DNA of 64,000 bases, from NCBI GenBank assembly GCA_026981855.1, contig JALSIB010000016.1:1-64000 (forward strand), read 5' to 3'. Position numbers and translations under genes: made by a program. Of the stretch, positions 27,687 through 32,053 are shown piece by piece; position 1 is the stretch's first letter; each line of letters starts with the position of its first letter. A model generated the notes under the pieces. The model was not told the origin of the DNA and did not search any database. It was given only the letters and a program-made list of their open reading frames with translations. Source of the DNA: Methylothermaceae bacterium (lineage in GTDB: Bacteria; Pseudomonadota; Gammaproteobacteria; Methylococcales; Methylothermaceae).

Positions 27687-29128
27687 CGGAAAACACCCTT
27701 GAGCGGAAGGATGACACGGAAAAACGCCCCCTTCCCGAAAGGAGCGTCCAGGACTTCAATTTTGCCCCGATGCATCATCACACTCTCGTTTACGATCGCC
27801 AGCCCCAGACCTGTCCCTTCGATTCCAAGCCTGCGACCCATTTTGCCCAGGAAAAGGGCGTCAAATATCCGCTTCCTCTCTTCAGGGGGAATACCAGGTC
27901 CTTGATCGCGAACCTCGAACTGGAGCGTGTCACCTTTCTGATAGAGATCGATCTGTATTTGGCTGCCGGGGGGAGAATACTTGACCGCATTGGAAATGAG
28001 ATTGTCGACCATGGTGCGTAAAAACGCGGGAAATCCCAGGATTTCCACCGGATCCAACTGGCTTTTTATCCGTATATCGTTGATTTTCAATCGGTCAGTA
28101 TACTCTTCGATGACTTCTTGTACCAGCAGCGCCATATTGATCACCTGGGGCCGGAGGTTTTCTTCCACCTGCTGCATCTGACTGTAGCGGATGAGATCCT
28201 CGATCATCTTATACAATTTGGTGGTATTGCCGGTGATGATCTGGACGATTTCGTCCTGTTCCGTATTCAGCTCGCCGACCACGCGGTCGTGCAATAATTC
28301 CACACCCTCGTGAATGTTGGCCAAAGGGGTCTTCAGCTCATGGGAGATATTGCGCATGAAACGCTGCTTCTCCGCTTCCAGCATCCGCAACCGGGTACGC
28401 ATCCAGTCCAGTGCCTGACCCAGGATTTCCAGATCCTTGGGTCCTTGCACTTCTATCGGCTCTTCGAAATGCCGGTCCCCCAGCCTCCGTATGGCGGCTT
28501 CCAATTGTCGAATGGGGCGAATGATGAGGTAGACGAAAAAAACCAGCAAAACAGCCGCCACCGGAAGCAATATCATCAAGTTACGGACAGTCTGCTGCCG
28601 GGCCTGCTGAGACTGTAACTCCAACTGTTGCAAGCTCTTTCCGACCAGGGTGATGCTCAATTGCCAGACTTCATCGGCCAACCCGCGCAGATAGCCAAAT
28701 TGATCGGCGGCCACCAGCTTGGCGCGATTATCCAGCTCAGGCTCCAGCAACATGGCGTACAAATCGAACTCGTAACCTTCTAGTTTACGTAATCTTTTCT
28801 CCAGATCGGGATACGCTCCCCCCGCTTCCAACAGCTCCTTCATCGCAATGACGAACGTTTCCCTGTTACGTTTGTAAGTGTCCCAGAAGCTGGAATCCTC
28901 CAGCACCAGATATTGTTTGGCGCTGCGCTCCATTGCGATCAGGTGTTCCAATACCATGCGGCTGCCCTGGGTCATCTGCACCGACTGATACACGACCTGC
29001 TGACTCAAACCACTCATCTTTTCTATGGAATAGAGCGCCGACCACAAAGCCAGAATCAATGGCAACATGACCATTGCAAAACTGACCAGAAGCAAGGTAC
29101 GCAGCGAGGGAAAACGAAACCTGTTCAA
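27683..29128 (-). CDS. glrK: sensor histidine kinase GlrK/QseE-like
   Basis: This 481-residue inner-membrane kinase has a transmembrane segment near the N-terminus, a helical periplasmic region, a second transmembrane segment near residue 190 and a HAMP-type linker. The dimerisation box HELKTPLANIHEG carries the phosphorylated His (about residue 261). The N, G1 (DQGPGIPPEERKRIFDA) and G2 (GTGLGLAIV) ATP-binding boxes are intact. It should phosphorylate the adjacent GlrR. It overlaps both neighbours by 4 nt, including epmA upstream, so the cassette is physically joined to the EF-P genes. Confidence 0.92.
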   Translation of the reverse strand: MNRFRFPSLRTLLLVSFAMVMLPLILALWSALYSIEKMSGLSQQVVYQSVQMTQGSRMVLEHLIAMERSAKQYLVLEDSSFWDTYKRNRETFVIAMKELLEAGGAYPDLEKRLRKLEGYEFDLYAMLLEPELDNRAKLVAADQFGYLRGLADEVWQLSITLVGKSLQQLELQSQQARQQTVRNLMILLPVAAVLLVFFVYLIIRPIRQLEAAIRRLGDRHFEEPIEVQGPKDLEILGQALDWMRTRLRMLEAEKQRFMRNISHELKTPLANIHEGVELLHDRVVGELNTEQDEIVQIITGNTTKLYKMIEDLIRYSQMQQVEENLRPQVINMALLVQEVIEEYTDRLKINDIRIKSQLDPVEILGFPAFLRTMVDNLISNAVKYSPPGSQIQIDLYQKGDTLQFEVRDQGPGIPPEERKRIFDALFLGKMGRRLGIEGTGLGLAIVNESVMMHRGKIEVLDAPFGKGAFFRVILPLKGVFR

Positions 29129-30114
29129 GCAGGGACCTGCACAGGGAATGTCAGGACACGATCGATGGACGCATGGCCCAGCTTCAACATCAGCAGCCGG
29201 TCCAGCCCCACGGCGACCCCGCTACACTCGGGCAACCCCGACTCCAGCGCGGCCAGAAACGCTTCATCGAGCTCCGGGCAGGGCAACCCGGCCATCGCCC
29301 GTGTCTTCCGCTCGGCCTCGAAACGGGCGCGTTGCTCCTTGGGGTCGGTCAGTTCGCGGTAGCCGTTTCCCAACTCGATGCCCTGGAGAAAAACCTCGAA
29401 ACGTTCCGCGACCCCGGGATCTCCCGGCTTTAGGCGCGCCAAGGCCGCCATGGGCGCGGGATAATCGTAGACGAACACCAGCCCCCGCGATGCCAGCCCT
29501 GGTTGCGCGATATGGGAAAAAAGGAAGTCGAGCCACAGAGTCCGGTCGTGCCCACAAACCGCCCCGGCTTCGGCCAGTCCCAATTCACTTGCCCGTTGAC
29601 GCAGCCTGGAAATCGGAGCATCCCATGGAACCCCGATGCTTTCCCGAAAAAGATCGCCATAGCGGATTCTCTCTTGGCCGGCTATCCGGTCCTTCAGCAA
29701 ACGGCGCAAAAGGGAAGCCACATCGTCCATCATGCGTCCGAGGTCGTAACCGACCCGATACCATTCCAGCAAAGTGAATTCGAGGCTGTGCCAGCGCCCC
29801 CTCTCCCCACCCCGGAAGGCTTTGCCTATCTGATAAATGTCTCCCGAGCCGGCGGCCAGCAGGCGTTTCATGGCGAACTCAGGTGATGTCTGCAAATAAA
29901 GCTTATGCCCGCCTTCCTCCACGGCAAGAAAATGCAAATGGGGATCAGTACCCACCCGGCCGGCAAGAACCGGGGTTTCCACTTCCATGACCCCTTCTTC
30001 GCGAAAATAGCGCCGGATTTCCGCCAGCATCCAGGCGCGCTGGCGCAAACACTCCATATCGCAACGGGGACGCCAATCGGGCCTATTTTCCAACTCGCGA
30101 GACGTACTCACCAC
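29125..30114 (-). CDS. epmA: EF-P lysine aminoacylase
   Basis: This 329-residue truncated class II lysyl-tRNA-synthetase homologue attaches beta-lysine to a lysine of EF-P. It has the catalytic core (VEVETP, the [20 protein letters not shown] block, [12 protein letters not shown]) but no N-terminal tRNA anticodon-binding domain, as in EpmA/GenX. The start is uncertain: GTG at 30114 gives a DWRP segment resembling E. coli EpmA but overlaps the end of efp by 32 nt, while ATG at 30057 would not overlap. It lies between efp and glrK in one minus-strand run. Confidence 0.93.
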
Positions 30115-30652
30115 TACGGGTGTCCACCTTGATCACTTCCCCGGTCTGCACGAACAATGGCACCCTCACCACCGCCCCGGTCTCCAGTTTTGCCGGTTTG
30201 CCACCTCCGCCGGAGGTGTCGCCCCGGACCCCCGGATCGGTCTCCACCACTTCCAATTCGACGAAATTCGGGGGCGTCACCGCAATCGGAGCGCCATTCC
30301 ACAATGTCACCGTACAAACCGCCTGCTCTTTCAACCATTTTGCGGAATCCCCCACCGCTCTGGCATCCGCCCCGACCTGCTCATAGGTGTTTGGATCCAT
30401 GAAATACCAAAACTCGCCATCGTTGTAGAGATACTGCATCTCGACTTCCAGCACATCGGCGGCTTCGATGGATTCCCCCGATTTGAAGGTACGCTCAATC
30501 ACTCTCCCGGTCTTGAGATTGCGGAATTTCACCCTGTTGAAGGCCTGACCTTTCCCTGGTTTGACGAATTCATTTTCCAGGATGGTACAGGGATCCCCAT
30601 CAAGAATCACTTTCAGTCCACTTTTGAATTCGTTGGTACTATAAGTCGCCAT
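30083..30652 (-). CDS. efp: elongation factor P
   Basis: This 189-residue translation factor relieves ribosome stalling at polyproline sequences. The modification site Lys34 sits in PGKGQA, as in beta-lysylated gammaproteobacterial EF-P, and the C-terminal GEYVSRVGK is typical. Both enzymes that make the modification are adjacent: epmA downstream on the same strand and epmB divergent 33 bp away. The hydroxylase EpmC is not in the window. Confidence 0.97.
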
Positions 30653-30685
30653 GTCTGACTGATTCCTCGTTACCTGAAGTTAAAA

Positions 30686-31684
30686 ATGCCTTCCATTATA
30701 CCCCAGCCCCGCCATGCTCTGACCTGGCAGCAGGAATTGGCCCAATCGTTCACCCATCCCGTTCAATTGCTGAAACAGCTTGGACTGCCTTTAGACATGT
30801 GGGACGGCAGCGCCGAAGCGAACTTCCATTTCCGTGTCCCACGCCCTTTCGCCCAACGGATGCGCCCCGGCGACCCAAACGACCCGCTGCTTCGCCAGGT
30901 TCTGCCCCGGGCGGAAGAAAATCTCTCCCCGGCCGGATTCGTCTCCGATCCTGTGGGAGATGGCAAGGCCCAGGTCGTACCGGGAGTGCTCCACAAGTAT
31001 GAGGGGCGGGCGCTGTTGATCGTGACAGGTGCTTGCGCCATCCACTGCCGCTACTGTTTTCGCAGGGAGTTTCCCTATGAAGCCAGCCAGTTCACCTCCC
31101 CCAGACAGCAGGCCGCCCTGGACTACCTCCGCAAAGATTCCTCCATCGAGGAAGTCATACTCAGCGGCGGGGATCCCCTTTCCGTGTCCAATCGGCGCCT
31201 GCAAACACTTGTCCGTGGGCTCGAGGACATCCCTCATCTGCGGCGCCTGCGCATCCACACCCGGCTGCCCGTGGTTCTGCCCGCCAGGGTGGACCCGGGG
31301 TTGCTGGAAATCCTGTCTTCCAGCCGATTCCCGACGGTCTTGGTGCTGCACATCAACCACGCCAATGAAATCGATGCCGCTGTCCGCGAGGCGGCCCGCC
31401 TGCTCCGCAGGCAAGGCGTTCACTTGCTCAATCAGAGCACTTTGCTGGCGGGCGTCAACGATAGCGTGACTGCCTTGGTGGCGTTGCAGAAGCAATCGTT
31501 CGAGGCCGGGGTTCTCCCTTACTACCTGCACCTGCTGGACCGGGCGCGTGGCACCGCCCATTTCGATGTTCCCGAAATCAAGGCGAAACACCTTCACGAA
31601 GACATGCGGCGCCGGCTTCCGGGGTATCTGGTCCCTCGGCTGGCACGTGACCTCCCCGGCCAGCCATACAAATTACTCATATGA
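30686..31684 (+). CDS. epmB: EF-P beta-lysylation protein, lysine 2,3-aminomutase-type
   Basis: This 332-residue radical SAM enzyme converts L-lysine to (R)-beta-lysine, the donor for EF-P modification. The cluster motif CAIHCRYC (Cys117, Cys121, Cys124) is intact, and SGGDPLSVSNRRL is a family block. The length is that of EpmB rather than catabolic lysine aminomutases, and linkage to efp and epmA supports the assignment. Confidence 0.95.
   Translation: MPSIIPQPRHALTWQQELAQSFTHPVQLLKQLGLPLDMWDGSAEANFHFRVPRPFAQRMRPGDPNDPLLRQVLPRAEENLSPAGFVSDPVGDGKAQVVPGVLHKYEGRALLIVTGACAIHCRYCFRREFPYEASQFTSPRQQAALDYLRKDSSIEEVILSGGDPLSVSNRRLQTLVRGLEDIPHLRRLRIHTRLPVVLPARVDPGLLEILSSSRFPTVLVLHINHANEIDAAVREAARLLRRQGVHLLNQSTLLAGVNDSVTALVALQKQSFEAGVLPYYLHLLDRARGTAHFDVPEIKAKHLHEDMRRRLPGYLVPRLARDLPGQPYKLLI
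30695..30700 (-). promoter_or_regulatory. candidate efp promoter (-10 element)
   Basis: A perfect minus-strand TATAAT lies 43 nt upstream of the efp start and inside the first codons of the divergent epmB. The -35 region is poor. Transcription from here would carry efp, epmA and probably the glrK cassette. Confidence 0.4.
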
Positions 31685-31729: not shown

Positions 31730-31758
31730 TTGAATTCTTTATGGGTCTTGGTTATAAA
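31730..31758 (+). promoter_or_regulatory. promoter of the small lipoprotein gene
   Basis: TTGAAT (31730-31735) and TATAAA (31753-31758) are exactly 17 nt apart in an AT-rich stretch, matching four and five of six consensus positions. They lie 59 nt before the ATG at 31818. Confidence 0.55.
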
Positions 31759-31817
31759 ACACCTGTGCAGTTAGCACTTTATAAAAAATCATTCACGATT
31801 GTGACGAGGAGGAAAAC

Positions 31818-31949
31818 ATGAAGAAAGTTCTGGGACTTTTGGCGCTGATGATGGTAACCGCCTCTTTGGTAGGCTGTGATCCGGCAGGCGAGCCCACCAA
31901 CAAACAGCGCCTCTCAAGCGCAGACATCACCCACAGCGTTTCTGCCTGA
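31818..31949 (+). CDS. small lipoprotein, 43 residues
   Basis: This short gene has a strong ribosome-binding site (GAGGAGG, 5-6 nt from the ATG). The product starts MKK, has a hydrophobic stretch (VLGLLALMMVTASLVG) and a lipobox LVGC with Cys20; a polar tail of 23 residues follows. Asp at the +2 position would, by the E. coli rule, favour retention in the inner membrane. It has its own candidate promoter and a strong terminator, so it is a separate transcription unit. It resembles entericidin-type lipoproteins in size and layout only; I do not recognise the sequence and assign no function. Confidence 0.7.
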   Translation: MKKVLGLLALMMVTASLVGCDPAGEPTNKQRLSSADITHSVSA

Positions 31950-32000
31950 GTCGTCTGACGACCCTCATACCCATAACAACAATCATCTCAGATGCTTTGG

Positions 32001-32026
32001 ACCCGGGGCATTCCCCCGGGTTTTTT
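32001..32026 (+). terminator. Rho-independent terminator after the small lipoprotein gene
   Basis: CCCGGGG (32002-32008) pairs with CCCCGGG (32014-32020) around a 5-nt loop, and TTTTTT follows directly (32021-32026). A32001 and T32021 can extend the stem. Confidence 0.88.
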
Positions 32027-32047
32027 CGTGCCCGGAAAGCAAACGTA

Positions 32048-32053
32048 TATAAT
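32048..32053 (+). promoter_or_regulatory. candidate gshA promoter (-10 element)
   Basis: A perfect TATAAT lies 39 nt before the gshA start and just after the preceding terminator. The -35 region (TTCGTG at 17-nt spacing) is weak. Confidence 0.4.

Follow-up and report, generated by a model that had tools for sequence, protein, structure and literature searches.

A family of short lipoproteins in Methylococcales encoded by a predicted one-gene unit

Does a 43-codon frame between epmB and gshA in a Methylothermaceae genome (2.75 Mb, 99% complete) encode a protein and, if so, how widespread is that protein, how is it expressed, and what might it do? The frame occupies positions 31818-31949 (+) of the window, that is, of the whole 64,000-nucleotide stretch of DNA that was analysed; its ATG is at 31818 and its stop codon ends at 31949. 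A sequence-only reading had described it as a stand-alone lipoprotein gene with a promoter-like pair, a ribosome-binding site, a lipobox with Cys20, and a terminator. All of these elements are where that reading placed them; the observation is confirmed, and its extent is larger than the reading had it. Common gene callers take frames from about 90 nt, which makes it doubtful that the frame is too short for routine gene calling, as had also been claimed.

Conservation and distribution of the frame

The stand-alone gene was to count as refuted if close relatives had lost the frame. With the window protein as the sole query, we found the frame retained in eight of the nine other genomes of the same genus (E from 3.6e-19 to 1.2e-4), and all eight copies sit between epmB and gshA on the same strand. 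The short homologues that the sequence-only reading proposed to look for upstream of gshA are present in these relatives, in which epmB is 58-68% identical to the epmB of the window and gshA is 66-81% identical over the part covered. In the ninth genome (G007), neither the lipoprotein gene nor gshA was matched at the thresholds used. When the frame is compared with that of the nearest relative, 15.5 of the differences are synonymous and 7.5 are non-synonymous. Pooled pairwise dN/dS was 0.27 in family f1, 0.20 in f8, and 0.15 in f4, and these values are rough because synonymous sites are near saturation in the deeper sets. Judged by this conservation, the frame at 31818-31949 is almost certainly a protein-coding gene under selection, and the gene and its family are almost certainly real.

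A first profile of 10 rows (A1) had matches in 269 of 301 genomes of the order (E ≤ 0.1). With a 28-row profile (A2) at E ≤ 1e-6, we found the protein in 262 of the 301 genomes, in 206 of the 228 genomes of good quality, and in 47 of 50 genera. (Matches with E above 1e-6 were scored as absent, and some of these may be due to fragments or to gaps in the assemblies; also, the 301-genome sample is dominated by family f8.) In a search of 61 genomes, A2 scores were mostly 50-80 bits in f1, f4, and f8 and 32-40 bits in f3 and in two of the three genomes of f2. Genera g5-g7, the sole genera seen in families f5-f7, had no A2 match at E ≤ 1e-6, and the best score in these families was 20.2 bits (61-genome search); we take f6 to be Cycloclasticus-like. 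Its presence in 206 of the 228 good-quality Methylococcales genomes sampled, together with its promoter and leader hairpin, makes this protein of about 40 residues a strong candidate for some basic role in the envelope.

Beyond the order, the only matches above 27.3 bits among 369 genomes of the class were three from Methylococcales, and the best score among 398 genomes of the phylum, after the window's own, was 27.5 bits. Nothing outside Methylococcales in these two samples scored above 27.5 bits. Background matches outside the order mostly covered little beyond the signal peptide, and some weak ones reached profile position 35 or beyond; nine such loci, when translated, gave longer proteins or different mature parts. 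The window protein has a short full-length frame, and its A2 score of 60.8 bits is well above the background of 27.5 bits (this score is not independent, as the window is a row of A2). On the sequence evidence, the family is a Methylococcales lipoprotein of about 40 residues that lacks a model in the libraries we searched. For the comparisons below we used 72 loci, which encode 69 distinct proteins and were chosen for strong matches across genera rather than at random.

Promoter, leader, terminator, and neighbouring genes

A simple promoter and terminator scan lists neither the promoter nor the terminator of the lipoprotein gene, so we took conservation as the test: these predicted elements are unprovable by single-sequence statistics and are proven by conservation. 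The putative promoter consists of a -35 element, TTGAAT (31730..31735, +), and a -10 element, TATAAA (31753..31758, +), with a 17-nt spacer. It is followed by a predicted hairpin at the 5' end of the mRNA, GTGC-AGTTA-GCAC (31765..31777, +), and transcription would start approximately at the GTGC arm of this hairpin. The Shine-Dalgarno sequence, GAGGAGGA (31806..31813, +), contains AGGAGG at 31807-31812, upstream of the ATG. An alignment of nine same-genus regions, the window's included, keeps TTGAAT, TATAA, GTGC...GCAC, GAGGAGGAAA(A/C)CATG, MKK...C...[KR]QR[LI]SS, and the 3' stem of the terminator. The Shine-Dalgarno sequence is GAGGAGGAAAACATG in eight of these nine sequences and GAGGAGGAAACCATG in the remaining one.

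The same elements recur across the lipoprotein family. All 72 loci have GGAG no more than 20 nt from the start codon. The pattern TTGNNN-N15..19-TATAA, which we picked post hoc from an alignment already inspected, is found upstream of 59 of the 72 loci (3.4 expected from shuffles), and a few of these 59 matches are misplaced (e.g., in G001 and G143); it was not found in the other 13. If the following GTG is included, the count is 58 loci versus 0.3 expected in shuffles. Of the distinct leaders, 55 have a spacer of 17 nt, and in 54 of these the 5' arm, which begins with GTG, finds a 4-bp partner (12.2 expected from shuffles); the remaining leader, that of G010, lacks the GTG arm and folds a different hairpin. 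The 3' arm is GCAC in 25 leaders, GTAC in 12, GCGC in 11, and something else in 6 (GCAT, GTGC, and ACGT, two each). Two leaders from f3 read GTGTC...GACAC, which is a change on both sides (seen by eye; the partner-count script scored a nearer partner). Across 59 leaders, the mean z score of the fold was -2.1 (mononucleotide shuffles), and in some of them the best fold is a different hairpin. The predicted fold of the window's leader, taken by itself, is no more stable than the folds of shuffled sequences (z of -0.65, or +0.41 with the start of the frame).

The conserved arms could instead be a DNA operator or a protein-binding site. A nearly invariant 5' arm would fit such a site, but the spacing of the arms varies and the changes in the 3' arm are mostly compatible with G-U pairing, so an operator is the less likely reading and an RNA hairpin is preferred. 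We also considered a regulon with a common promoter-hairpin element and rejected it: the exact pattern occurs once in the whole window genome, at the lipoprotein gene.

The predicted intrinsic terminator (31999..32026, +) is a GC stem followed by T6. Its fold energy of -17.9 kcal/mol (z of -2.7) was matched by 2 of 200 shuffles, and its 3' stem is kept in same-genus relatives; in G002 this stem has a different sequence with the pairing retained (by eye, in the same-genus alignment). A T-run preceded by a hairpin no more than 90 nt past the stop codon is found in 52 of the 72 loci, and by this rule the other 20 have no terminator. Downstream of the terminator, TATAAT (32048..32053, +) is probably the -10 element of a separate gshA promoter; it is present in eight of the nine same-genus sequences and absent from G001 (by eye).

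The only Rfam match was below threshold: anti-hemB sRNA at 31930-32029 of the window, which overlaps the terminator (22.3 bits, E of 0.0067, gathering threshold 49.5). We therefore rejected a known RNA family. This match over the 3' end and the conserved non-coding hairpin are what would favour a transcript that acts mainly as a regulatory RNA, with the frame either incidental or a leader peptide of gshA. The pooled dN/dS values, however, indicate conservation at the protein level, and we consider this explanation very unlikely. As for the leader peptide, a terminator lies between the frame and gshA, and the gene has other neighbours elsewhere in the order, so we rejected that reading.

These neighbours differ from family to family. 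In f1, they are epmB and gshA. At 26 of 30 f8 loci, the gene immediately upstream of the lipoprotein gene has about 634 codons (e.g., L148 3037-4941), and the L148 copy, which we scanned, matches the Pfam model for a DCC1-like thiol-disulfide oxidoreductase. At the five f4 loci the neighbours are again other than those in f1. The promoter, hairpin, and ribosome-binding site are conserved despite these differences. On this comparison, the linkage to gshA is local rather than general, and the promoter travels with the gene, in favour of a unit that is autonomous. In the window itself, the upstream neighbours are adjacent genes for the modification of EF-P (29125-31684): an EpmA-like synthetase, EF-P, and an EpmB-like radical SAM protein. 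(The last was identified by Pfam Radical_SAM and the first two were named by eye.)

The lipoprotein and its comparison with known families

The window gene is predicted to encode a prolipoprotein of 43 residues, with a signal peptide at 1-19, the lipobox LVGC, and the mature part CDPAGEPTNKQRLSSADITHSVSA. Across the family, the precursor has 35-56 residues, usually 37-43, and the mature part, counted from the cysteine, has 16-34 residues (18-24 in 63 of the 69 distinct members). The cysteine is residue 20 in 62 members, 21 in six, and 23 in one, and it is preceded by glycine in 63 and alanine in six. All the hallmarks of a type II signal peptide are present: a basic n-region, a hydrophobic stretch, and a small residue before an invariant cysteine. 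The strict pattern [LVI][ASTVIG][GAS]C fails in 12 of the 69 members, in 11 because of methionine at -2 or -3 and in one because of alanine at -3. The product is probably anchored in the envelope by its lipid. The mature core is close to x-[DN]-x-PDG-x-KQ[KR]; Q[RKN] occurs in 63 of the 69 members and PDG in 40. AlphaFold2 predicts that the signal peptide is helical and gives no confident fold for the mature part (pLDDT of about 51-54).

Retention in the inner membrane, suggested earlier on the basis of Asp at position +2, is possible for the window protein; it and three same-genus relatives have this residue. As a property of the family, retention is not supported, because +2 Asp is found in only 4 of the 69 distinct members; the others have Met (22), Gly (22), Leu (12), Ile (5), Asn (2), or Ser (2). 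The +2 rule of E. coli may also fail in Methylococcales.

The mature tail was not recognised in the sequence-only reading, and the libraries agree. The window protein has no Pfam match. A search of Pfam with 28 members gave seven families at E ≤ 1 (best E of 0.013), and none of the 28 reached a cut-off in NCBIfam (matches at E ≤ 0.001, for models with curated cut-offs). Annotation by family models misses this gene. The best NCBIfam score, 27.0 bits, was to the PG1828 family lipoprotein (NF050142) and comes from one member, whose aligned residues (1-40) include the mature part; the score is far below the 50-bit cut-off, and the window protein has no match to this model at E ≤ 1. In the tables that give cut-offs, the models for SA0632 and TrsH reached at best 20.2 and 16.1 bits (cut-offs 70 and 150); for TrsH, some members are known by E value alone (best E of 0.0059). 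We also set aside a phage origin; matches to PHROGs were weak (best E of 6.8e-6, to phrog_542, for which no function is given). In the open-access literature, judged by title, we found no account of such a small lipoprotein in methanotrophs or Methylococcales.

One parallel is LptM (YifL) of E. coli, which is also a short lipoprotein. The conserved residues of LptM adjoin the lipidated cysteine, and those of the Methylococcales family do so too. LptM binds LptD and LptE (PMC10567701). Might the family consist of LptM orthologues that aid the maturation of the LPS translocon? Weak NCBIfam matches (E ≤ 1) to LptM (NF047847) in 26 of the 28 members point that way. The best of these, however, has 24.4 bits, which is below the cut-off of 27.7, and its aligned profile positions (1-22 of 31) correspond in essence to the signal peptide; the window protein scores 8.9 bits; and the GPLYLP motif of LptM is missing in the family members displayed. 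Furthermore, the window genome has its own LptM elsewhere (CGQSGPLYLPPP, 38.8 bits, above the cut-off), upstream of a frame that resembles lysA (by eye). Given the scores below the cut-off and the separate LptM in the same genome, we rejected orthology, which we find hardly credible.

Entericidins EcnA and EcnB are lipoproteins of about 40 residues whose genes are sometimes in tandem. The size and architecture of our family are similar to those of entericidins and colicin-lysis proteins, and the tandem genes in G041, G059, and G118, about 0.3 kb apart, recall the EcnA/EcnB pair. A small toxic or lysis lipoprotein would kill or permeabilise its producer under stress. The mature motif of the entericidins is different, though, and no entericidin or lysis model is among the seven Pfam families that the 28 members matched at E ≤ 1. 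Unlike an accessory toxin, the protein is found in 262 of the 301 genomes of the order, many with a single match. We consider toxicity or lysis quite unlikely.

Proposed mechanism and distribution relative to methane oxidation

Conservation shows an autonomous one-gene unit, with a predicted near-consensus promoter of the sigma-70 type, a leader, and a prolipoprotein. We propose that this unit gives a well-expressed lipopeptide, located mostly in the outer membrane, that docks on a partner in the envelope; taken as a whole, the chance that this statement is right is about even. The stabiliser in the ompA leader includes a hairpin, and the lipoprotein leader, of about 60 nt, has a hairpin at its start and a strong Shine-Dalgarno sequence at its end. 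The 5' UTR of the ompA mRNA is described as a stabiliser that has a strong Shine-Dalgarno sequence (PMC7509114). The likeness of the two leaders is by plan, and we make no claim of homology; the likeness to LptM is also by plan only (PMC7509114, PMC10567701). By analogy with ompA, the leader hairpin and strong Shine-Dalgarno sequence would make the mRNA stable and keep its translation steady and high. Through the action of Sec, Lgt, LspA, and Lnt, the product would become a lipopeptide of about 20 residues, which in most species Lol would carry to the inner face of the outer membrane. There, the lipid-proximal segment x-[DN]-x-x-D-G-x-x-Q-[KR] would dock on an envelope protein complex, and the tail beyond this conserved segment would be free to vary.

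High expression is somewhat probable. Codon usage does not support it: the codon adaptation index (CAI) is 0.663, about 90% of resampled sequences equal or exceed this value, and all 12 genes that we took as ribosomal by eye have higher values (0.679-0.785). Docking at the outer membrane is a more tentative part of the proposal and somewhat less likely than not; the 65 of 69 distinct members in which +2 is not Asp were counted in favour of the outer membrane.

An abundant lipoprotein with a stable mRNA might instead be a major structural protein in the manner of Lpp (Braun lipoprotein), whose gene is also small and monocistronic, with a terminator. The monocistronic layout, leader hairpin, strong ribosome-binding site, and terminator all fit this idea. 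Lpp is joined to peptidoglycan through a C-terminal lysine, but just 2 of the 69 distinct members end in lysine, and nothing in the codon usage points to abundance. The mature part of Lpp is far longer, and a coiled coil that spans the periplasm needs more than about 20 mature residues. Also, the Lpp/OprI profile was matched by 8 of the 28 members, at best with E of 0.035. We therefore think a structural role of this kind improbable and prefer the docking lipopeptide.

Methylococcales is the main order of gammaproteobacterial methanotrophs, and the lipoprotein might be a lineage-defining envelope component tied to the methanotrophic cell plan (e.g., to intracytoplasmic membranes or to the supply of copper to pMMO). 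In the families with the lipoprotein (f1, f2, f3, f4, and f8), the best scores for PF02461 (PmoA) are above 380 bits. Of the families that lack it, f6 and f7 have PF02461 scores of about 227-369 bits and f5, with one genome, has none. The fit per genome is looser than the fit per family, and many of the 61 genomes are drafts: 11 have no PF02461 match (G000, G007, G008, G010, G013, G018, G024, G025, G034, G051, and G055), six of these 11 have the lipoprotein (G000, G008, G010, G018, G024, and G051), and G023 has PF02461 without the lipoprotein. Shared ancestry accounts for the distribution just as well; a tie to methane oxidation is thus no more than a possibility, and we consider it unlikely. 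Several genera of Methylococcales have cultured strains, and the leader may be usable as a compact native expression unit in work with methanotrophs.

We noted a few minor points about individual genomes. G000 has no match to PF02461 (PmoA/AmoA) at 99% completeness, perhaps because of an assembly gap, and seven of its nine same-genus relatives do have a match. In G059, the gshA match (C1 294122-295641) consists of two overlapping pieces, which may reflect a frameshift or a sequencing error. Tandem copies of the lipoprotein gene, about 0.3 kb apart, are found in genera g12 and g22 (L148, L178, and L153), and in g12 (L148 and L178) the tail of the other copy is longer and different (CMDDPDQGNPKPKGYGS...).
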